Shown: in pieces, positions 5,257 to 62,457 of the stretch
Numbering within the stretch: the first letter of the stretch is position 1
Layout of the letters: each line of letters begins with the position of its first letter
Origin: Hahella sp. CCB-MM4
Lineage (GTDB): Bacteria > Pseudomonadota > Gammaproteobacteria > Pseudomonadales > Oleiphilaceae
Direction of reading: 5' to 3'
DNA length: 64,000 nt
Assembly (NCBI RefSeq): GCF_002260525.1
Contig: NZ_MRYI01000017.1
Coordinates: forward strand, 62,001 to 126,000
Notes under the pieces: generated by a model
Databases searched by the model: none
Told to the model about the DNA's origin: nothing
What the model saw: the letters and a program-made list of their open reading frames with translations, nothing else
Position numbers and translations under genes: made by a program

Positions 5257-5949
5257 ATGTCAGACAACTCAAATCCCCTCGATTTCAATTTCATCATGGC
5301 TTCCAGCGTCCATGACATGAAAAACTCATTAAGCATGCTGCTGCATTCGCTTGATGAGGTCAGCCAGGAGGTCAACGAACTCCAATTGCCCGTCGCCGAC
5401 AGGATGGCCACACTTCAATATGAAGCTGCCCGTGTTAACAATGACCTGGTCCAATTGCTCAGCCTTTATAAGCTGGAGAATGAAGCTCTACGCCCTCATA
5501 TAGACGAGCATTTTCTGAGAGATTTTCTGGAAGAGCACATTGCTCGATATCATCCTTTATTCAAAGTGAAGGATATGCGCTGTGAGCTGGTATGTGATGA
5601 GACACTTAGCGGCTATTTTGACCGGGATCTCATCAGTGGGGTCATCAATAACACTTTGGCCAATGCCATTCGCTACAGCCATGACGCCATTCGCGTTTCA
5701 GCATTCAAGGAAGAAGACGGACTCAGCATCATGATCGAAGATGACGGCGCCGGTTTTCCAACCGTCATGCTGGAGCAGCCCGGAAAATTGACAGAAGGGG
5801 TTAATTTCGAATCCGGCAGTACTCACTTGGGTCTTTATTTTGCCCATCGCATTGCCACCCTGCATACACAGAATGGTAAGACAGGAACCATCAAACTCAG
5901 TAATGACAGTAAACTTGGAGGCGGCACCTTTAAACTCTATCTGCCATAG
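5257..5949 (+). CDS. Small soluble sensor histidine kinase
   Basis: 230 residues, no membrane segment and no separate sensor domain. The phospho-acceptor motif is HDMKNSL with H19, almost at the N-terminus. A dimerisation helix follows, then an HATPase domain with N-box NNTLANAIRYS, G1 box EDDGAGFP and a GLYFAHRIATLH segment. It lies 102 bases after the TPR response regulator in the same direction, suggesting a cytoplasmic two-component pair. The lack of an input domain implies control by a partner protein or by the TPR regulator itself. Confidence 0.82.
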   Translation: MSDNSNPLDFNFIMASSVHDMKNSLSMLLHSLDEVSQEVNELQLPVADRMATLQYEAARVNNDLVQLLSLYKLENEALRPHIDEHFLRDFLEEHIARYHPLFKVKDMRCELVCDETLSGYFDRDLISGVINNTLANAIRYSHDAIRVSAFKEEDGLSIMIEDDGAGFPTVMLEQPGKLTEGVNFESGSTHLGLYFAHRIATLHTQNGKTGTIKLSNDSKLGGGTFKLYLP

Positions 5950-6087
5950 AGCTGCCTGTATCGACCAAGAGGCAAGTCCGACACAGGCTCATTTAGAGAG
6001 GTGCTTCTTCAGCAGAATTTTTCAGGGGAGGCTCCTCCTCCCCTCCGCACATTTCTACGCGCTACTTCTCACCGCAACCTTTCCTCG

Positions 6088-6735
6088 CTATCTGTGCGAG
6101 AACTCCGTCAATCGATTCAGCCAGAGCCTCAGATCGGGCGCAATATCCGTTAGCAGATCAGGATCGGAGATTTCCACCATTTTCACGTGACCATAGAGAG
6201 TTGCGTCAGCATAAGTGGGCTGATCTCCAAAAATAAATGCCTGTTTACTCAGCGTTTCCAGCGTGGGACGCAGAAGGCTGCGGGCCTTGCTGACCAGCTC
6301 ACCGCTTTGCCTGGCCCATTGGTCCACACATCCCTCGCCAAATTTACGTTCTTTGATGAAGGAGAAAAACGCTTTTTCAGAGGCAGTTTTGAATCGATTT
6401 CGAATTCCTGGGGAGGCCAGCCGGAACAGCACATCTTCCAACGCCGAGTCACACCAGTCAGCGTATGCCCAGATCGGCCCCTGCCAGGGAGAAGGCGTCA
6501 GTCTTTCGGCGTTGTCACCCGACAACAGGGATTTGCAGATCACTCTGGAGTCCTTGAGTACCGTTCCGTCATCCATTAACAGCACCGGCACCTGGATGTA
6601 ACCGCCAGTCAGGTTAATCAGCTTACTGCGATCGAGAAAAGGCACTTCTTCAATGTCGTACCGCAGATTCAACAGGTCCAGAACCATCTGAACCTTTCTG
6701 GCATAGCAACTGTAATCAAAACGATAGAGCTTCAT
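6088..6735 (-). CDS. Glutathione S-transferase family protein
   Basis: 215 residues. The N-terminal thioredoxin-fold domain begins MKLYRFDYSCYARKVQMVLDL and contains the cis-proline segment YIQVPVL and a DGTVLKDSRVI substrate-binding stretch. The C-terminal domain is all-helical and ends with the FGDQPTYADATLYGHV motif of the GST fold. Start ATG has a GGAGGT ribosome site. The first-helix motif SCYARK (Cys at the catalytic end) suggests thiol-transfer or glutathione-lyase chemistry rather than classical conjugation. The gene stands alone between convergent and tandem neighbours; its substrate cannot be inferred. Confidence 0.85.
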   Translation of the reverse strand: MKLYRFDYSCYARKVQMVLDLLNLRYDIEEVPFLDRSKLINLTGGYIQVPVLLMDDGTVLKDSRVICKSLLSGDNAERLTPSPWQGPIWAYADWCDSALEDVLFRLASPGIRNRFKTASEKAFFSFIKERKFGEGCVDQWARQSGELVSKARSLLRPTLETLSKQAFIFGDQPTYADATLYGHVKMVEISDPDLLTDIAPDLRLWLNRLTEFSHR

Positions 6736-50080: not shown

Positions 50081-50848
50081 ATGTTACGCTCCTGTCACCG
50101 TATAAACGGCCTGGGTGGTGCATTCAAGGGATTTGTGAACGCCTCCCGATCGCCGCTTAAAGCATTGGTCGCCAGCTTTCCACTCTGGTGCTCCATGCAC
50201 GCACACAGCCTTGAAAAAGTTCCTGGACACCCACTAAGCCTACATCAAACGACCGTTAAGTTTTCCAGCGATATTCCCTTCAATGAGCGCAACTCCCATA
50301 GCATTGCCCGTCTTCTGAAAAGACTGCCACAGGAATCCGCCCTGCGGGTTCGGGAGTGGCTGAAGCTGGTGGAACAGAACCGGTTACGTCCGATGGTGAC
50401 CAAACTCAAGGCAGTGAATGATTACTTTAATGCCCTGGCTTATATTTCCGATGAAGAAATGTGGCAAGTGGAAGACTACTGGGCAACTCCCCTGGAAGTG
50501 ATCTCCAACGGTAAAGGGGACTGTGAAGACCTCGCCATTGCCAAATACTTTACGCTTCGGGCCATGGGAGTCTCCAGCCAGCAATTGGGCATCAGCTACG
50601 TAAAAAGTTATCGCCTGCCCACCGCACACATGGTTTTGGACTACTACGATTCCAGAGAATCCCGGCCGGTAACCCTGGATAACCTGGATGACACCATCCG
50701 CGAACGCCCGGACCTTAACGCCATTTACAGCTTCAATGAAGAACATGTCTGGTCCAGTCATAACCGTTCTTCAAATGTAGGCTCTCCTTCAGAAATCAGG
50801 CACTGGCTGCTGCTTCAGGAAAAGCTGAGCGATCAGTTGTTATTCTGA
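50081..50848 (+). CDS. lapG: LapG-type periplasmic cysteine protease (transglutaminase-like)
   Basis: 255 residues. Export segment near 22-42, then the bacterial transglutaminase-like cysteine peptidase domain. Catalytic triad C148 (GKGDCEDLAIA), H183 (TAHMVLDYY) and D200 (LDNLDD), with spacing like LapG. LapG cuts the N-terminus of large adhesins such as LapA, releasing biofilm cells when c-di-GMP is low; LapD normally sequesters it. Neither lapD nor an adhesin gene is adjacent, so the partners must lie elsewhere. Start ATG 50081 lacks a good ribosome site. Confidence 0.87.
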   Translation: MLRSCHRINGLGGAFKGFVNASRSPLKALVASFPLWCSMHAHSLEKVPGHPLSLHQTTVKFSSDIPFNERNSHSIARLLKRLPQESALRVREWLKLVEQNRLRPMVTKLKAVNDYFNALAYISDEEMWQVEDYWATPLEVISNGKGDCEDLAIAKYFTLRAMGVSSQQLGISYVKSYRLPTAHMVLDYYDSRESRPVTLDNLDDTIRERPDLNAIYSFNEEHVWSSHNRSSNVGSPSEIRHWLLLQEKLSDQLLF

Positions 50849-50912
50849 CCCTCCTGATCACCTTCCTCCCTCAATCCCCCAGATTTCGTGAAGCACTTCA
50901 CATTATTTCATC

Positions 50913-50951
50913 CTTAAGGTTAAGAAATGTTTCTCTTAAGGGTTCCTTAAG
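50913..50951 (+). promoter_or_regulatory. PmrA/QseB-type operator (CTTAAG direct repeats)
   Basis: CTTAAG-GGTTC-CTTAAG at 50935-50951 is a perfect YTTAAK-N5-YTTAAK box; a third CTTAAG at 50913 is 22 bases (two helical turns) upstream on the same face. A TTGACA at 50953-50958 follows directly as a possible -35 element. It precedes the hemolysin-family gene by about 90 bases, and a PmrA/QseB-like regulator is encoded 4.6 kb downstream in the same direction. Confidence 0.78.
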
Positions 50952-51043
50952 GTTGACAGGTTAACTTGGCTCCATCACTGCTCATAAACGTTTGAAGATA
51001 AACCGAATAACCCCCTTATGAGCGAATACGGAGATCATGAAAG

Positions 51044-51694
51044 ATGCCTGCAACCAGCTTAATAAACCTGCTTCCACAGGAGAAAGGCGAGCAAATCTAT
51101 ACCCTTTGCCGCCACCCGTTAAGGCACTACACCGAAGCATTTATCCGTCAGCGCTATGATGAAGATTACGGCGCCAGAATTTCTCATTTCTGTTCCCGGT
51201 TAATGGTCAGCGTATTTGAAGGGGAAATACAGTCTGCCATCGGGTTTGAACTGGCACAGCATCGCCAGTTATTCCTGGAGCAGTATTTCTCCCAGCCCGT
51301 GGAACAGGTCATCGCACATAAATGCAATCTGCCAACCACTCGCGGCCAGATTGTTGAAGTGGGTAACCTTGCTTCACAGTCTCACGGGGCTTTACGTCGC
51401 TTTATCCTGATTCTGGGGCAGTATTTCATCCAACAGCATCTTCAATGGGTGGTATTTACCGCCATTCCCAGTTTGCTCCATACCTTCGAGAAATTTCAGA
51501 TTCCCTTGTATGAACTGGGCGAAGCACGCCCGGATGCCTTGGGTGAAGAAGCCGGCAACTGGGGCAGCTATTACAAAAAATCTCCCAAAGTGGTGGCCGC
51601 CCATCTGGGCACGGGCATGGCCAAACTCAGAAGCAACGCCATGCTGGCCAAGCTGGTTGATGCTCAACCTACACCGCTATTTCTAGGCCAGTAA
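51044..51694 (+). CDS. Thermostable hemolysin family protein (PF12261), likely acyltransferase-like
   Basis: 216 residues, matching the delta-VPH/T_hemolysin family: HPLRHYTEAFIRQRYDEDYGARISHFCSRLMVS, then IVEVGNLASQSHGALRRFILILGQYFIQQHLQWVVFTAIPSLLHTFEKFQIPLYELGEARPDALGEEAGNWGSYY. No signal peptide or pore-like region. Despite the name, the fold is thought to belong to the GNAT/acyl-homoserine-lactone-synthase group, so N-acyl transfer is a better hypothesis than haemolysis. Starts the block of acyl-chemistry genes behind the PmrA-type box. Substrate unknown. Confidence 0.82.
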   Translation: MPATSLINLLPQEKGEQIYTLCRHPLRHYTEAFIRQRYDEDYGARISHFCSRLMVSVFEGEIQSAIGFELAQHRQLFLEQYFSQPVEQVIAHKCNLPTTRGQIVEVGNLASQSHGALRRFILILGQYFIQQHLQWVVFTAIPSLLHTFEKFQIPLYELGEARPDALGEEAGNWGSYYKKSPKVVAAHLGTGMAKLRSNAMLAKLVDAQPTPLFLGQ

Positions 51695-51744
51695 CGACAA
51701 CGATAAGACTATACCAGTCACTCAGGCAGCAGTAGATAAAGGAC

Positions 51745-53364
51745 ATGACAGAGATACTTACCAGCATCGCCACCTGGGCAGAGCAGCAGCCACAGGCTAT
51801 CGCCCTGGAGAATCATGAAATCTCCATCACTTACCGGGATTTGTGGTCCCGGATTGAGTATCTGTCCCGGCAGTTCAGAGACCAAAACGTTTCCATCCTG
51901 GCTCTGGCAGGCGATAACCATCCTGAATGGATCTGCGTGGATCTGGCCGCGCTTCATGCAGGCGTCACCCTGATTCCGATCCCAACCTTCTTCAGTCAGC
52001 AACAGGTAGAACACATACTCCGGGATGCAGCGGTAGACCATCTGGCATTTATGGCGTCGCCGATAACGGATCGGGCGCCTGCAGAATTCGTTTCAAATGA
52101 TCAGCAAAGCACGGTATTTCTGGGCGGAGACGTCTTCCTGAGAGCGCTCGCCAATACCCCACCACAACCTGGCTCCAGAATGGCTGACGTTGCCAAAATC
52201 ACCTACACCTCCGGCTCGACCGGTCAGCCCAAGGGAGTTTGCCTGTCTTCACAGACGCTCGATGCGGTCAGCAAGGCACTCACTGGCGCGATTCAGATCT
52301 CCGATGCTTTCACCCATCTGTGCACCCTGCCATTGGCCACCTTACTGGAGAACGTCGCTGGCGTTTACTGCACACTGATGAAGGGACAACGTTGTGTCAT
52401 ACCTTCATTGCATGAACTTGGTTTTCAAGGCTCCAGCAGACTGGACGCGGCCACCTGGGTCGGTCAGTTGCAACACTGGCAACCCGCAACATTAATTCTG
52501 ACTCCCGAGCTGTTAAAGCTGTTGGTATTGTCCTGTATGCGCCTTAACTGGCGACCGGATCATTTTCAATTCATTGCCGTCGGTGGCGGCAAAGTATCTC
52601 GGGAAATGCTGGAGCAAGCGCAAAGTATCGGTTTACCGGTTTTCGAAGGCTATGGATTGTCGGAATGCGCCTCCGTGGTGGCAGTCAATACTTCCCGGCA
52701 CCACCGCCCCGGAAGTGTCGGTAAACCCCTGCCCCATGTTTCCGTAACATTGGCTGACGACGGTGAAATCCTGGTATCCGGTAATGCCTACAGCGGCTAC
52801 CTGAATGATACGGTTTTGCCTCATCAGGCTATTAAATGTTCTACAAAAGAGGTAATTGAATGCTCTGCAAAAGAGGTGATTGAAAGCTCCTCATCAGAGC
52901 CGAATACCGTAACTCAGATTGTTCACACCGGTGACTTTGGTCGTTTCGATGAAGACGGGTATCTCTATGTGCTGGGGCGTAAAAAGAACCTCATTATCAA
53001 CGCCTACGGACGCAACATTAATCCTGAATGGATAGAAAGCGAGTTGACCGGCGTCCCCCAGATTCTTCAGGCAGCTGTGTTTGGAGAGGGAGAACCGGGA
53101 CTGGCTGCGCTGATCACGCCAGCCCCTGAGGTCAGTTTCACTCAGATCAATGAGCTGATGGAACGGATAAACCAGGATTTACCGGACTATGCCCGGATAG
53201 TTCAATGGTCCATCAACCAGATTCCTTTTACTCCGCACAACGGTCAGCTGACAGAAAACGGCCGACTGAAGCGGACGGTGATCGCCAATGCCTATCAGGA
53301 CACCCTTGATCAACTGTTTAAAGCGATTCAATCAGATAAATACCTTAATGGAGCCCTATCATGA
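51745..53364 (+). CDS. Acyl-adenylating (AMP-binding) enzyme
   Basis: 539 residues of the ANL superfamily. P-loop YTSGSTGQPKG near 154-164, GYGLSEC near 305, HTGDFGRFDEDGYLYVLGRKKNLIINAYGRNINPEWIE (about 392-429) and the C-terminal catalytic Lys in LTENGRLKR. Activates a carboxylic acid, probably a fatty acid, as the adenylate. Oddity: an insert of about 20 residues (363-382) made of a nine-residue tandem repeat (STKEVIECS/AKEVIESSS), just before the HTGD hinge region. The next gene overlaps by four bases. Confidence 0.9.
   Translation: MTEILTSIATWAEQQPQAIALENHEISITYRDLWSRIEYLSRQFRDQNVSILALAGDNHPEWICVDLAALHAGVTLIPIPTFFSQQQVEHILRDAAVDHLAFMASPITDRAPAEFVSNDQQSTVFLGGDVFLRALANTPPQPGSRMADVAKITYTSGSTGQPKGVCLSSQTLDAVSKALTGAIQISDAFTHLCTLPLATLLENVAGVYCTLMKGQRCVIPSLHELGFQGSSRLDAATWVGQLQHWQPATLILTPELLKLLVLSCMRLNWRPDHFQFIAVGGGKVSREMLEQAQSIGLPVFEGYGLSECASVVAVNTSRHHRPGSVGKPLPHVSVTLADDGEILVSGNAYSGYLNDTVLPHQAIKCSTKEVIECSAKEVIESSSSEPNTVTQIVHTGDFGRFDEDGYLYVLGRKKNLIINAYGRNINPEWIESELTGVPQILQAAVFGEGEPGLAALITPAPEVSFTQINELMERINQDLPDYARIVQWSINQIPFTPHNGQLTENGRLKRTVIANAYQDTLDQLFKAIQSDKYLNGALS
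52831..52890 (+). repeat. 27-bp tandem repeat inside the adenylating-enzyme gene
   Basis: Two adjacent in-frame 27-base units (TGTTCTACAAAAGAGGTAAT... and TGCTCTGCAAAAGAGGTGAT...) with a partial third. They add a Ser/Thr-Lys-Glu-rich insert; its position in a surface loop is inferred. Confidence 0.72.
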
Positions 53365-54053
53365 CAGCAGTGAAGGAACTTACGAGCCAACCCAAATACC
53401 AGACATTCTATGACCGGCTGCAGGCTGAAACTGTCGTAGAGCGCAACAAGCTGCTGAGCAGCCCCATTATCCAGGATGCACTGCAGGGCAATATTACCCT
53501 TACCCAATATCAGGCCTTTCTGACCCAGGCTTATCATCACGTCAAGCATACGCTCCCCCTGCTGATGTCCTGTGGCGGCAGATTGGGCGGTGAATATGAG
53601 TGGTTGCGGGAGGCTGTCGCCGAATATATCGAAGAGGAAACCGGCCATCAGGAATGGATACTCAGCGACATTGCCGCGACCGGTGCCGACGCGGAAGCCG
53701 TGCGCCATGGCCGCCCCCACCCTGACACTGAAGTTATGGTGGCCTATGCCTACCACTGTATCGACCGACAGAACCCGATAATGTTCTTCGGTATGGTCCA
53801 TGTCCTGGAAGGCACCAGCGTCACCACCGCCACCCAGGCCGGGGAGATCATCCAGCGTACTCTGGGGCTTCCCAACCAGGCCTTCAGTTATCTGTACTCA
53901 CACGGCAGCTTGGATCAGGAACACATTCGCTTTTTCGAAAACCTGATGGTCCGGGTCTCCGACGAAAATGACCAGGCAGATATTATTCACGCCAGCAAAA
54001 TGTTCTATGAGTTGTATGGCCGGGTGTTCCGTTCACTCCCCAGAGAGGTGTAA
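53361..54053 (+). CDS. Haem-oxygenase-like diiron oxidase (TenA/UndA-type)
   Basis: 230 residues. TENA/THI-4/PQQC fold with a full HDO metal set: E93 and H96 (EEETGHQEW), E150 (MVHVLEGTS), H181, D185 and H188 (HGSLDQEH). The H-x3-D-x2-H pattern, and the spacing from H96 to E150, match UndA-like oxidases that cleave fatty acids to terminal alkenes and related N-oxygenating or desaturating enzymes. No thiaminase active-site Cys signature is apparent. ATGA overlap with the adenylating enzyme. Predicted to oxidise the activated acyl product. Confidence 0.87.
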   Translation: MTAVKELTSQPKYQTFYDRLQAETVVERNKLLSSPIIQDALQGNITLTQYQAFLTQAYHHVKHTLPLLMSCGGRLGGEYEWLREAVAEYIEEETGHQEWILSDIAATGADAEAVRHGRPHPDTEVMVAYAYHCIDRQNPIMFFGMVHVLEGTSVTTATQAGEIIQRTLGLPNQAFSYLYSHGSLDQEHIRFFENLMVRVSDENDQADIIHASKMFYELYGRVFRSLPREV

Positions 54054-54056
54054 ATC

Positions 54057-54857
54057 ATGGATCTTGCCAAACTGACCGTATTGATCACCGGTGCGACTGG
54101 GGGAATTGGCCAGGCTCTGGCCCTGCAACTGGCAAGCCGGGGAACCTATCTGGTGCTGACCGGACGCGATTCTCAAGCCCTGACCGAGCTGCAAGCCAAA
54201 GTCACCGGAAAAGGAGGTCGATGCCGTACTGTCGCGGCTGATCTGAATTCAGAGGACGGACGCCAACAGGTACTACAGTGTTGTCTGGAAACCCCTATGG
54301 TCAACGCTCTGGTGAATAGCGCCGGTACGAACAGTTTCGTCTCCTTCTCCGAGCAGACTCCGGAGCAGATAGAATCGCTGATGCAGACGAACCTGATCAG
54401 CCCGATGTTACTGACCCGCATGCTGTTGCCATTATTACTGAAGCAACCCGACTCCACCCTGATTACCATTGGATCCACCTTCGGCTCCATCGGCTATCCG
54501 GGGTATTCCACCTATTGTGCCAGCAAGTTCGGACTCCGGGGCTTCCACGAAGCCTTGCAGCGAGAGTTGGCAGATACATCTGTACGCACTGTTTATGTTG
54601 CCCCACGGGCCACCCAGACCGGCATCAACTCTGAAAAGGTCGTCGCCATGAATAAAGAACTGGGTAACCAGATGGACAGCCCGGACTGGGTAGCACAACA
54701 GGTCGTACAAGCCATGCAGACAAACCGGCGCAGCGCCTACCTGGGCTGGCCTGAAAAACTGTTTGTCCGCCTGAATGCGCTATTCCCGGGACTCGTTACC
54801 GGGGCCATCGTCAAGCAGCTTCCGGTGATCAAAAAATACCTGCTGCAGTCATCCTGA
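54057..54857 (+). CDS. Short-chain dehydrogenase/reductase
   Basis: 266 residues. Classical SDR: cofactor loop TGATGGIG (11-18), NSAG near 87-90, catalytic S140, Y153 and K157 (YCASK). The C-terminal 30 residues are hydrophobic and may associate with membrane (LFVRLNALFPGLVTGAIVKQLP). NADP(H) preference suggested by an Arg after the second strand (GRDS). Three bases after the oxidase gene. Probably reduces or oxidises a keto/hydroxy intermediate of the same pathway. Confidence 0.9.
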   Translation: MDLAKLTVLITGATGGIGQALALQLASRGTYLVLTGRDSQALTELQAKVTGKGGRCRTVAADLNSEDGRQQVLQCCLETPMVNALVNSAGTNSFVSFSEQTPEQIESLMQTNLISPMLLTRMLLPLLLKQPDSTLITIGSTFGSIGYPGYSTYCASKFGLRGFHEALQRELADTSVRTVYVAPRATQTGINSEKVVAMNKELGNQMDSPDWVAQQVVQAMQTNRRSAYLGWPEKLFVRLNALFPGLVTGAIVKQLPVIKKYLLQSS

Positions 54858-54924
54858 AATCAACCACCGAAAAATGCCAAATCTCCTGTGGCCACACTTA
54901 TCACGATCTAGAGAGGTATCTACA

Positions 54925-55566
54925 ATGAAACGTCAACATATTTCCGTACTGGCCGGTATGGTACTCGGCGCCATGACAGGATTGACCCAGGCAGAGGTTG
55001 TTCCTGATGATGTTAAATCACTCTATATGGACTGGGCTCACATTCGTTATGAGTTACCGTCAGACCAGCAAAAGAAAGGTTACGAAGAACTGAAAAACCG
55101 GGCCGACCAGGTCGCAGATTCTCACCCAGATAATGCCACCGCCTGGATCTGGCGAGGCATTATTGCCAGCACCTATGCAGGCGCCAAGGGAGGCCTGAGT
55201 GCACTGTCTCTGGTCAAAGAGGCCAGGTCCTCACTGGAGCATGCGTTGGAAATTGATGCTTCCGCATTTAACGGTGCGGCCTACACCAGTCTTGGCGCTC
55301 TTTATTATCAGGTTCCCGGCTGGCCGATCAGTTTTGGGGATGACGACAAGGCCCGTGACCTATTACAAAAAGGATTGGAACTCAATCCGCAGGGAATCGA
55401 TGCTAATTTCTTCTACGGCGACTTTCTTGCAGACCAGGGGGACGATAAGATGGCACGTGAATATCTGAACAAAGCATTGAATGCGGCCCCAAGACCCGAC
55501 CGCCCGGTGGCTGATGCCGGTCGCAGGGAAGAGATCTATGCGGTCCTGAATAAACTGAAAAAATAA
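54925..55566 (+). CDS. Secreted TPR-repeat protein
   Basis: 213 residues from ATG 54925 with AGAGGT upstream. Signal peptide (MKRQHISVLAGMVLGAMTGLTQAE), then several TPR-like helical pairs (ATAWIWRGIIASTYAG, FNGAAYTSLGALYYQVPGWPISFGDDDKARDLLQKGLELNPQGIDANFFYGDFLADQGD). Periplasmic. Similar small TPR proteins are found beside two-component systems, but I cannot name a role. It may sense or chaperone within the unit; it is followed nine bases later by the response regulator. Confidence 0.78.
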   Translation: MKRQHISVLAGMVLGAMTGLTQAEVVPDDVKSLYMDWAHIRYELPSDQQKKGYEELKNRADQVADSHPDNATAWIWRGIIASTYAGAKGGLSALSLVKEARSSLEHALEIDASAFNGAAYTSLGALYYQVPGWPISFGDDDKARDLLQKGLELNPQGIDANFFYGDFLADQGDDKMAREYLNKALNAAPRPDRPVADAGRREEIYAVLNKLKK

Positions 55567-55575
55567 GGGAATCAT

Positions 55576-56238
55576 TTGAGAATATTACTGGTCGAAGACG
55601 ATGAGCTGCTGGCCGATGGCATCAAGACTTCACTATCTCTTAAGTCAAATGCCGTGGATTGGGTGGAGTCCGGAGAGGCAGCTCTGCATGCCGTCCAGGT
55701 CAGTATGTTCGATATCATCATCCTGGATCTTGGGCTACCCGGTATTGACGGGCTGACAGTGCTGCGAAAACTGCGGTCGGACGGTAATCAGACACCGGTC
55801 CTGATACTCAGCGCCCGCGACCAGATCCAGGACAGGGTCAAAGGGTTGGATTCCGGTGCAGATGATTATCTGCTGAAACCTTTTGATGTGAGTGAACTAC
55901 AGGCCCGACTCCGGGCCTTGACCCGGCGTTCAAGCGGTCATCGTCATCCGGATATCAATATCAACGATATCCGGATCCTGCCGTCTTCCTATCAAGTATT
56001 CAAAGGCGATGATGAAATCAAGTTGTCACGCCGCGAGTACGCGATCCTGCATGAGCTTGCCAGTCATCGGGGACGAGTCCTGTCCAGAGAACAATTGGAG
56101 GATCTGATCTACGGCTGGTCCGATGAGGTCTCCAGCAATACCATGGAAGTCCACATCCATAACCTGCGCAAAAAGCTCGGCAGTCAACTGATTAAAACGG
56201 TTCGCGGCCTGGGTTATACCATCGAGTTTTCTGCATGA
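55576..56238 (+). CDS. Response regulator, PmrA/QseB-like
   Basis: 220 residues, start TTG 55576 with AAGGGA five bases upstream. Receiver: MRILLVEDDELLADGIKTSL (acidic pair), phospho-acceptor D51 (IILDLGLPGIDG), DDYLLKPF lysine. OmpR-type winged helix closes with YGWSDEVSSNTMEVHIHNLRKKLGSQLIKTVRGLGYTI, the closest look-alikes being PmrA, QseB and BasR. Overlaps the kinase start by four bases. Expected DNA site is YTTAAK-N5-YTTAAK, found perfectly upstream of the hemolysin-family gene. Confidence 0.92.
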   Translation: MRILLVEDDELLADGIKTSLSLKSNAVDWVESGEAALHAVQVSMFDIIILDLGLPGIDGLTVLRKLRSDGNQTPVLILSARDQIQDRVKGLDSGADDYLLKPFDVSELQARLRALTRRSSGHRHPDININDIRILPSSYQVFKGDDEIKLSRREYAILHELASHRGRVLSREQLEDLIYGWSDEVSSNTMEVHIHNLRKKLGSQLIKTVRGLGYTIEFSA

Positions 56239-57749
56239 AAATCCGCGTTTCTTCCATCAAGCGGTTTCTGCTGATCAGCATTTCCGCACTCATTATCATC
56301 AGTGGTTTGATTACCCTGGTAACCAACTATGCCGAGACCCACGAGCAGGTAGAGGAGCTTTTTGATGCGGAGCTGGCGCAAATGTCCCGGCTCCTTCAAA
56401 GCATTCTGGCCAACCAGTTGAAGAGCACTCATCTCAATGCCCTCAAACAGGCACTGGTGTACGAGGACTACGAAGACAGCAAGGAAATGGAGAGTGACGA
56501 GGAACACTACCAGGAATACAACGAACTGGGCCATAAGTACGAAAAAAAGCTCGCTTTTCAAGTCTGGCACGAGAATGGGCAGATTCTGATTCATACCCAA
56601 TCTGCCAAAGAATATGAATACAAAAGAATGCCCGCAGGTTTCCATGACCTGAAGGTTGGGGACTCTGCCTGGCGCACCTTTACCCTGCACGATCCACAAC
56701 TGAGACTGTGGATACAGGTAGCACAGCGGGCTGACGTGCGCAGCGAACTCACCCAGCAAATCGCACTGCAGTCCCTCTGGCCGTCACTCGCCCTGATCGT
56801 GCTTTTGGTGTTTGGCATCAGTTGGGTCGTCACACGGGGATTACTTCCCCTGGGCGAAGTATCATCAGAGCTGAAGCAGCGGAGTGCCGACAATCTGTCA
56901 ACCCTTCCCCACGATCACTATCCCGAAGAACTTCGTAGCCTGGTGTCTGCCCTTAACGATCTTTTCACCCGGCTGCAAAAAGCCATGGAGCGCGAACGTC
57001 GTTTCACTGCAGATGCAGCCCATGAACTTCGCACCCCGCTTGCTGCCACCAAAGTACACCTGGAAAACGCCACCACTGCGTTAAAGTCCCTGGAGGATTC
57101 CACGAAGGAAACCGTCGAAAACAACGACAGCAATAGAGACAGCGAAAGAGAAAAAGAAAAAGAAAAAGAAAAAGAAAAAGAAAGTAACTCCTCACTCTAT
57201 CGACGGGTTGCCGGTGACAGCATTGATAAAGCCCTGACAGGCCTGCAACGCCTGATTCACATGGTCGAACAATTGTTACAGCTCAGCCGCCTTGACCAGG
57301 AAAATGCCATTCTTGAGAAAAAGCCGGTTCAATGGGGAGATCTGGTCAATGAGGAAATTGCCGCCGTCGAAGACTATGCCAAGGAAAAAGGGATCGACAT
57401 TGCAGTCACCGACAACGCATCTTCTCCTATAGAAGGCAATCCGGGGATGCTGCGTATCCTGCTTCGCAACCTGCTGGATAACGCGATACGGTATTCTCCT
57501 TCCGGTTCCCAAATCACAATCGTTCTGCGCCAGCACCAACTGATAATAGAAGATCAGGGGCCTGGAATACCCTCAGAATTAAGGGAACAAATGTTCGAAC
57601 GCTTTTTCCGCGGGAAGGCGACCCGGGAATCCGGCAGTGGACTGGGCCTTTCCATCAGCCTCCAGATCGCCGAACTCCACGGTGCCACATTAACCATGTC
57701 GGATGCCGAAAACGGCCCACATGGATTGCGTATGTGCCTGGACTATTAA
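56235..57749 (+). CDS. Sensor histidine kinase, PmrB/QseC-like, with Lys-Glu repeat
   Basis: 504 residues. Helix near 8-30, periplasmic domain 31-180 with a strongly acidic loop (residues 77-95, EDYEDSKEMESDEEHYQEY), second helix near 181-201, then the DHp region with H263 (FTADAAHELRTPL). The DHp hairpin is lengthened by a charged insert (about 285-320) containing a Lys-Glu dipeptide run. N-box LRNLLDNAIRYS and GSGLGLSISLQIAELHG complete the kinase. The acidic loop suggests cation, iron or cationic-peptide sensing. Autophosphorylation could be affected by the insert. Confidence 0.9.
   Translation: MKIRVSSIKRFLLISISALIIISGLITLVTNYAETHEQVEELFDAELAQMSRLLQSILANQLKSTHLNALKQALVYEDYEDSKEMESDEEHYQEYNELGHKYEKKLAFQVWHENGQILIHTQSAKEYEYKRMPAGFHDLKVGDSAWRTFTLHDPQLRLWIQVAQRADVRSELTQQIALQSLWPSLALIVLLVFGISWVVTRGLLPLGEVSSELKQRSADNLSTLPHDHYPEELRSLVSALNDLFTRLQKAMERERRFTADAAHELRTPLAATKVHLENATTALKSLEDSTKETVENNDSNRDSEREKEKEKEKEKESNSSLYRRVAGDSIDKALTGLQRLIHMVEQLLQLSRLDQENAILEKKPVQWGDLVNEEIAAVEDYAKEKGIDIAVTDNASSPIEGNPGMLRILLRNLLDNAIRYSPSGSQITIVLRQHQLIIEDQGPGIPSELREQMFERFFRGKATRESGSGLGLSISLQIAELHGATLTMSDAENGPHGLRMCLDY
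57143..57184 (+). repeat. Hexanucleotide repeat (GAAAAA) in the kinase gene
   Basis: About six in-frame copies of a GAAAAA/AAAGAA hexamer encoding Lys-Glu repeats in the DHp insert. Slippage would change the protein by two residues per unit without frameshift. Confidence 0.82.
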
Positions 57750-61758: not shown

Positions 61759-62457
61759 ATGTCCAGACGTATTGCCCTGGTGGAAGATGAGCCACTGATT
61801 CGCAGTAATTACAGCGAAGCCCTGAAGAAGCATGGTTTCCAGGTTGAGGCATATGCTGACCGTAAATCTGCACTGGAGCGCTTTAATGTCCAGCTGCCGG
61901 ATCTGGTCATTATCGACGTGGGCCTGGGATCAGAAATAGAGGGTGGCTTTGAGCTTTGCCGCGAAGTCCGGGCCAAGTCCGCAGAAGTACCCATCATTTT
62001 TCTGACCGCCAGAGACAGCGAGCTGGACCAGATTTCCGGCCTGCGCCTGGGGGCTGACGACTACCTGACCAAAGACATCAGCCTCCCCTATCTGATCACC
62101 CGCATTGTCGCCCTGTTCCGCCGCCTGGATGTTATGCAGGCACAGCAGAATCGTCCGGACGAGCTCATCACCCGCGGCAAGCTGGTACTGAACCTGGATC
62201 GCATGCATGCAACCTGGAGCGAGCAGCCACTTAATCTGACCGTGACAGAATTCTGGATTGTTCACGCGCTCGCCCGCCACCCTGGTCATGTCAAAAACCG
62301 TGATCAGTTGATGGACGCAGCCAACACCGTGCTCGACAACAGCACTGTGACCTCCCATATCAAACGCATCCGTAAAAAATTCCAGGCGCTGGATCAGGAA
62401 TTCGATTGTATTCAGACCGCCTATGGCATGGGTTATCGCTGGCACCTGGTTGAGTAA
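61759..62457 (+). CDS. pdsR: Sortase-system response regulator PdsR
   Basis: 232 residues from ATG 61759 (GAGGA upstream; a longer form starts at 61720). It closely follows the proteobacterial dedicated sortase regulator family: MSRRIALVEDEPLIRSNYSEALKKHGFQVEAYADRKSALERF, phospho-acceptor in VIIDVGLGSEIEGGFELC, IFLTARDSELDQISGLRLGADDYLTKDISLPYL, and TEFWIVHALARHPGHVKNRDQLMDAA with an OmpR-type C-terminus. These regulators pair with PdsS and control a sortase and its VWA/VIT surface target. The kinase begins six bases downstream. Confidence 0.9.
   Translation: MSRRIALVEDEPLIRSNYSEALKKHGFQVEAYADRKSALERFNVQLPDLVIIDVGLGSEIEGGFELCREVRAKSAEVPIIFLTARDSELDQISGLRLGADDYLTKDISLPYLITRIVALFRRLDVMQAQQNRPDELITRGKLVLNLDRMHATWSEQPLNLTVTEFWIVHALARHPGHVKNRDQLMDAANTVLDNSTVTSHIKRIRKKFQALDQEFDCIQTAYGMGYRWHLVE

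Follow-up and report, generated by a model that had tools for sequence, protein, structure and literature searches.

Hahella sp. CCB-MM4 carries a run of seven genes, designated here hem, acs, hdo, sdr, tpr, rr, and hk, in a stretch of 64,000 nucleotides (the window; positions 62,001 to 126,000 of contig NZ_MRYI01000017.1; all positions below are counted from the first letter of the window). It is fairly likely that these genes form a conserved, autoregulated biosynthetic operon, in which a ligase-fed N-acyltransferase makes an N-acyl small molecule that is modified by a haem-oxygenase-fold oxidase (HDO) and a short-chain dehydrogenase/reductase (SDR). Seven open reading frames (ORFs) on the same strand fill positions 51044 to 57749. 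The junctions from hem to hk are, in order, a gap of 50 bases, an ATGA overlap of 4 bases, gaps of 3, 16, and 9 bases, and a second ATGA overlap of 4 bases. The original prediction, made from the letters of this DNA alone, had described a same-strand run with ATGA overlaps or gaps of less than 70 bases, and both this run and its family labels were borne out by the ORF list, Pfam, and NCBIfam. Its proposal of a single functional unit is also supported, because conserved synteny, genome-level co-occurrence, and correlated protein distances all point to one predicted operon.

To describe the distribution of the unit, 369 genomes drawn evenly across the class were searched, and PF12261, the family of hem, was found in 38 of them, with one match apiece. 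Loci (our own L numbers) were fetched from 36 of these genomes without regard to the neighbouring genes. The remaining two are the window itself and the genome G302, in which a contig end truncates the PF12261 match, with an HDO gene following on the same contig. When the core genes were detected by tblastn with the window proteins, the complete five-gene core was present in 27 of the 36 loci, arranged as hem-acs-hdo-sdr-tpr or with the last two genes swapped. Four loci (L039, L043, L063, and L064) contained hem, acs, hdo, and sdr with no tpr detected; L043 is cut by a contig end, and approximately 2 kb separates hem from acs in L063 and L064. The hdo and sdr genes of L064 are both split in two and apparently decayed. 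Among the others, L035 ends after acs, L048 and L065 are without hdo, and L060 and L066 have PF12261 without the cluster. The HDO profile matched 40 of the 369 genomes at an E value of 1e-10. The scores of 33 of them exceeded 300 bits, a line for the cluster-type HDO that was set after the scores were seen, and all 33 belong to the 38 genomes with PF12261. Of the seven genomes with weaker matches, G111 combines PF12261 with a split HDO, and the other six (G093, G121, G019, G022, G170, and G224) have HDO matches of 59 to 212 bits and are without PF12261. The co-occurrence in other genomes that had been put forward as a check on the unit was found.

A scan of GTDB with the HDO profile gave at least 586 confirmed matches, and the best 80 loci were taken by HDO similarity, so that they are a non-independent sample. 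The whole core was present in 71 of these best 80. The hem gene was missing in three (L080, L093, and L144), all at contig ends near the HDO gene, and tpr was missing in seven, of which L080 and L101 are at contig ends. Massilia, Polynucleobacter, Methylophilus, Gallionella, Mariprofundus, Marinobacterium, and Pseudomonas are among the genera represented. Chance gene order was ruled out by the recurrence of the same order in most relatives (27/36 loci and 71 of the best 80), and a known anti-phage unit was ruled out because the five core proteins gave no PADLOC match. In addition, the pairwise distances of the five core proteins correlated with one another (r = 0.45-0.76, 100 loci) more strongly than in all 200 permutations, which is expected if the unit is inherited or transferred together. 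Plasmid or second-replicon copies were found in Variovorax, Citrobacter, Pantoea, and Pseudoalteromonas (4 of the 24 records examined), and no two-component genes follow the core in the Citrobacter and Pantoea copies. At its tpr end, the Citrobacter freundii plasmid core (L068:5922-10088) runs into an IS26-like sequence. In 5,426 Escherichia coli genomes, no place covers 80% of this core at near identity; the E. coli matches listed for it correspond solely to the IS26 end.

In the genus of the window, PF12261 was found in five of seven genomes, the window's included, and the other four loci keep the full seven-gene order. Their identities to the window proteins were 77-78% for HDO and 44-46% for hem. 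We conjecture that a fast divergence of hem and a slow divergence of hdo would fit a shifting specificity for the acyl group or the amine, combined with an unchanging oxidation step. Of two loci of the same family, L222 has the core with the two-component genes inverted upstream, and L223 has no detectable hdo; both carry operator-like boxes. A contig search with the single hem protein as the query found no relative.

The product of hem matched T_hemolysin (PF12261) with 179.7 bits against a gathering cut-off of 27. In a structure model of high confidence (pLDDT 94.8), its fold is that of the acyl-homoserine lactone (AHL) and N-acyl-amino-acid synthases (GNAT/LuxI type) and not that of a pore former; such a comparison informs on fold, not on function. 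The gene product is thus best described as a predicted LuxI/FeeM-like N-acyltransferase. No match was obtained by sequence against the PDB, nor to PF00765 (LuxI) or PF21926 (FeeM) in Pfam at an E value of 0.01. E46, D48, D51, and E103-x-x-R106 are invariant in four LuxI relatives; we take the three acidic residues and the arginine of the E-x-x-R motif to belong to the S-adenosylmethionine site. On the other hand, hem retains just the glutamate of E-x-x-R (E105, followed by N108), and no conserved acid was found in its residues 44 to 53. The amine acceptor of hem is probably not S-adenosylmethionine.

The historical name of PF12261 implies a true protein haemolysin that the neighbouring genes modify or export as an acylated toxin. 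This explanation, in line with the title of a 2002 paper on dth and with passages on the Vibrio cholerae dth gene, seems hardly credible to us. The predicted GNAT/LuxI-type fold speaks against it, no signal-peptide-like N-terminus was seen by eye in the window hem, the unit contains no secretion gene, and the family is conserved in freshwater, soil, and iron-oxidising genera. As a conjecture, an amphiphilic product, rather than the protein, could cause the haemolysis after which the family was named.

The product of acs matched AMP-binding with 171.1 bits (cut-off 29.9). Its ANL motif residues (T155, S156, G157, T159, P162, and G164; G302-E307; G396-D397; G411-R412) were conserved in 98-100% of 118 sequences, and S158, G160, and K163 of the P-loop in less than 96%. 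Position 507, which by eye we take to be the place of the A10 catalytic lysine, is Arg in 106 and Lys in 7 of the 118 sequences. The substrate of acs could not be placed by sequence comparison. In L044 (4624-6074), radical SAM and pyridoxamine-phosphate-oxidase-like genes lie between acs and hdo.

The hdo product matched Haem_oxygenas_2 (PF14518) with 109.5 bits (cut-off 28.9) and fits an HDO in both profile and fold. E92/E93, H96, E150, H181, D185, and H188, conserved in 99-100% of 114 sequences, presumably form the 3-His/3-carboxylate diiron ligand set of other HDOs. It scored 33.9 bits against the curated cut-off of 200 bits for the CADD p-aminobenzoate synthase (TIGR04305). The original prediction had named an alkene, an amide, or a modified acyl signal as possible products. 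A terminal alkene or other hydrocarbon pathway of the UndA type, with hem and acs in supporting roles, is very unlikely, although UndA is a fold neighbour of the modelled HDO. In sequence, HDO appears nearer to 3dde, CADD, and MboA, which it matches at the thresholds used; UndA was absent from the profile matches, an absence compatible with kinship. Alkenes need no N-acyltransferase. The theme of acyl chemistry is supported, and, given the modelled fold of the PF12261 protein, an amide or an AHL-like acyl compound is a better candidate than an alkene of the UndA type. An HDO gene is followed at once by a FeeM-domain gene in another genome (L183:821-1456 and 1456-2568).

The sdr product matched adh_short with 145.6 bits (cut-off 26.6), exceeded the equivalog cut-off of NF006565 (PRK09072) with 361.7 bits against 238, and has an intact S140-Y153-K157. 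The tpr product, a tetratricopeptide repeat (TPR) protein, matched TPR_8 with 32.1 bits (cut-off 25.7) and is distantly similar to the sterol transporter BstC. Its start is uncertain, and an internal ATG approximately 50 bp downstream of the listed start, which opens an apparent signal peptide by eye, is probably the true one; the protein is probably exported. In L065, which is without hdo, a TauD/TfdA-family dioxygenase gene lies between tpr and hem (5468-6340).

Upstream of hem, the sequence CTTAAGGGTTCCTTAAG was found at 50935-50951. The left edge of the predicted operon is the putative promoter near 50935-50967. The pattern YTTAAKN5YTTAAK occurs at this single place in the window, matching both strands, against 0.07 matches expected. 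The same operator is identical letter for letter in all four of the other loci of the genus. Occurrences were counted in 116 loci after 5 of 121 sequences, which were without hem or 200 bases upstream, had been dropped. TTAA-N7-TTAA was present upstream of hem in 75 of them, compared with a mean of 2.6 and a maximum of 7 loci in 40 dinucleotide shuffles of the upstream DNA. Other TTAA spacings, from 3 to 17, occurred in 2-10 loci each, and the N7 form was found in 13 of 210 upstream stretches of other ORFs. The operator was present in 59 of 65 loci with the regulator gene in the operon but in only 8 of 38 without it (Fisher P = 5.7e-13, an optimistic value since the loci are related), and in 8 of 13 loci where a contig end leaves the presence of the regulator unjudged. 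TAnnnT stands exactly 10 bp past the operator in 49 of the 75 loci, compared with 0-3 at each other offset from 4 to 19. Because the presence of the operator tracks the regulator gene and the site is kept in relatives, the operon is very probably a target of its own regulator, which strengthens the earlier claim that the unit has its own two-component system. PmrA-type activators bind where the box stands. From this position we infer, by analogy, that the regulator would activate the operon.

In the window's own genome, YTTAAKN5YTTAAK gave 8 + 8 matches against 5 + 11 for the reversed control, and a global PmrA-type regulon was thereby ruled out; the lack of a genome-wide excess suggests a local rather than a global regulator. 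Strict CTTAAG-N5-CTTAAG occurs at three places in this genome, one of which is the operon promoter. A second lies inside an ORF taken by eye for an amidase, and another (G000:C107:231754; L199:2255-2271) is just upstream of a cytochrome b561 gene. A gene of the b561 type also immediately precedes hem in Pantoea (L069), and one separates hem from acs in L063 and in L064 (3 of 121 stretches). Cytochrome b561 is possibly an electron donor to HDO.

The rr product, whose ORF starts at TTG, contains Response_reg and Trans_reg_C. Its best NCBIfam matches were PmrA (243.9 bits, equivalog cut-off 330) and QseB (228.3), and those of the hk product, which contains 2CSK_N, HisKA, and HATPase_c, were QseC (285.1, equivalog cut-off 475) and PmrB (203.4). 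Since all of these scores are under the equivalog cut-offs, the "-like" naming of rr and hk, already used in the original prediction, is right. The window hk has an acidic periplasmic loop, and strong acidity is not general among its relatives. RExxE, which we take to be the iron-sensing motif of the BqsS type, did not occur in the periplasmic loops inspected, and iron sensing of this type was ruled out. Downstream of hk, the same strand often continues with genes for a cupredoxin, an FTR1/EfeU-like iron permease, and an outer-membrane-like protein (L117:11450-12921, L135:11088-11432, and 30 further loci); the outer-membrane-like protein had no Pfam or NCBIfam match.

One explanation of these neighbours is a role in iron or metal handling, with a metal as the cue of the two-component pair and an amphiphilic metallophore as the product of the oxidase chemistry. 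At least one member of the module was found at 28 of 66 loci with the operon regulator compared with 4 of 53 without it, and FTR1 was present in 32 loci, often after the kinase. However, within the stretch examined the module is absent from over half of the loci that have the regulator, the window among them, and the listed neighbour families included no conspicuous chelating-group enzyme or siderophore receptor, so that we regard a metal-handling function as improbable. A more serious, though still doubtful, alternative is that the operon builds or remodels a membrane (amino)lipid or an acylated envelope component as a defence against envelope stress, under control of the PmrAB/QseBC type. 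The PmrA-type operator, the PmrA/QseB-like regulator, the similarity of the exported TPR protein to BstC, and the occurrence in many kinds of proteobacteria are consistent with it, as are genes for EptA-like phosphoethanolamine transferases, found close to the cluster in 9 of the 121 stretches (L037, L084, L094, L099, L115, L127, L130, L133, and L134). These nine are a small minority, however, the unit has no gene for a glycerolipid acyltransferase or a polar head group, and the modelled fold of hem is that of soluble AHL and N-acyl amino acid synthases.

In the biosynthetic operon that we favour, the order of the reactions and the classes of substrate are those suggested by the protein families. 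The acs product would activate a fatty or other carboxylic acid, and the hem product would pass the acyl group to an amine. HDO might oxidise the acyl or the amine part with O2 at its diiron site, and the SDR would reduce or re-oxidise the product. The exported TPR protein may handle or carry a lipid in the periplasm, a role likewise read from its family. The kinase and the regulator would act on their own promoter through the PmrA-type operator, giving a feedback loop whose sign, judged from the position of the box, is probably positive. A more specific form of this model is acyl-amide signalling, with a synthase, its own ligase, HDO/SDR tailoring, a cognate QseC-like kinase reading the product, an operator activating the synthesis, and haemolysis as an effect of the product. 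It is offered tentatively, as a possibility of rather low probability. If true, many proteobacterial species would possess an equivalent of LuxI/LuxR autoinduction built on a histidine kinase. The earlier idea that the unit senses a cue related to its product drew no support from the present results.

Many of the genome papers found under the family name list PF12261 genes as haemolysins or virulence genes, and these annotations would change if the family consists of N-acyltransferases of a biosynthetic operon. An unassigned class of bacterial acyl amides could then be found, whose product the operator, the enzymes, and the inducible control would make accessible to study, and an HDO would join the enzymes that tailor N-acyl amides. 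The locus would also provide a concrete test case of whether a kinase of the QseBC/PmrAB type can sense an endogenous acyl compound.

The features of the predicted operon are listed below. Directly upstream of it is a LapG-like cysteine protease gene (50081-50848; 164.4 bits against a cut-off of 320). A gene of this kind was close to the cluster in one of the 36 PF12261 loci (L045), and it is separate and outside the unit.

Positions of the predicted operon and its promoter elements in the window
Feature	Positions	Strand	Basis
PmrA-type operator, CTTAAG-N5-CTTAAG (TTAA-N7-TTAA)	50935..50951	+	pattern search
Probable −10 element TAACTT, 10 bp past the operator	50962..50967	+	read from sequence
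hem (dth / delta-VPH family, PF12261), predicted LuxI/FeeM-like N-acyltransferase	51044..51694	+	
acs, AMP-binding acyl ligase (AMP-binding + AMP-binding_C_3)	51745..53364	+	
hdo, haem-oxygenase-fold oxidase (HDO), candidate diiron ligand set	53361..54053	+	
sdr, SDR oxidoreductase, NF006565 (PRK09072)	54057..54857	+	
tpr, TPR protein, probably exported	54874..55566	+	
rr, PmrA/QseB-like response regulator, TTG start	55576..56238	+	
hk, QseC/PmrB-like histidine kinase, 2CSK_N sensor domain	56235..57749	+	

No pathway with this gene set was known to the original prediction, and our search of one open-licence library agrees in that no description of the set as a pathway was found among the papers listed. 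The locus itself, however, is on record: the window unit and the Vibrio dth / delta-VPH region, known here from passages of papers, are apparently the same locus. We take VCA1105 to be the regulator gene of this locus. According to these passages, dth is VCA1111 (PMC6474259), and VCA1110, designated DthC, lies in the dth region adjoining the delta-thermostable hemolysin, so that a thermostable-hemolysin gene stands beside an acyl ligase, as hem does beside acs; a VCA1110 transposon mutant fed a C13 acid formed C15 and not C17 (PMC12208996). A network analysis includes VP1729 (hemolysin), VP1731 (iron-containing redox enzyme), and VP1735 (QseC-type kinase) (PMC10469919), and the response-regulator gene VCA1105 is listed as changing in infection models (PMC4441509). 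In such passages the region is treated as a haemolysin, a fatty-acid ligase, or a virulence-network node, and no pathway, acyltransferase fold, or operator is described in them. Hemolysin, heme oxygenase, and diiron were looked for in an aminolipid review (PMC11631085) and did not occur in it.

Among known regulatory systems, PmrAB and QseBC share with the unit the protein families of rr and hk and a PmrA box at the target promoter; the window operator fits the verified Salmonella boxes, given in passages of one paper as CTTAAG-N5-xTTAAT (PMC3973317). They differ in that rr and hk fall below the equivalog cut-offs and no genome-wide excess of the operator is seen here. The AHL synthases (LuxI, including the CoA-dependent BjaI and RpaI) have the overall fold in common with the modelled hem, with a glutamate on the equivalent strand, but hem is without the LuxI acidic residues, the motif arginine, and a PF00765 match; the adjoining sensor is of the histidine-kinase type, and the unit has no LuxR-type gene. 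The FeeM N-acyl amino acid synthases differ from hem in the absent PF21926 match and in gene context. A close precedent in logic is the tyz / oxz acyl-oxazolone pathway. In the passages describing it, TyzA/OxzA was recognised as a LuxI/FeeM-fold N-acyltransferase from an AlphaFold model, and this FeeM/BjaI-like enzyme works with oxidising and cyclising enzymes (PMC10404671). The likeness lies in an N-acyltransferase, then an oxidising enzyme, and then a further tailoring step. The tyz / oxz oxidase is a nitroreductase-superfamily flavin enzyme with a cyclising partner, whereas the window unit has an HDO, an SDR, a ligase, a TPR protein, and a two-component system instead.

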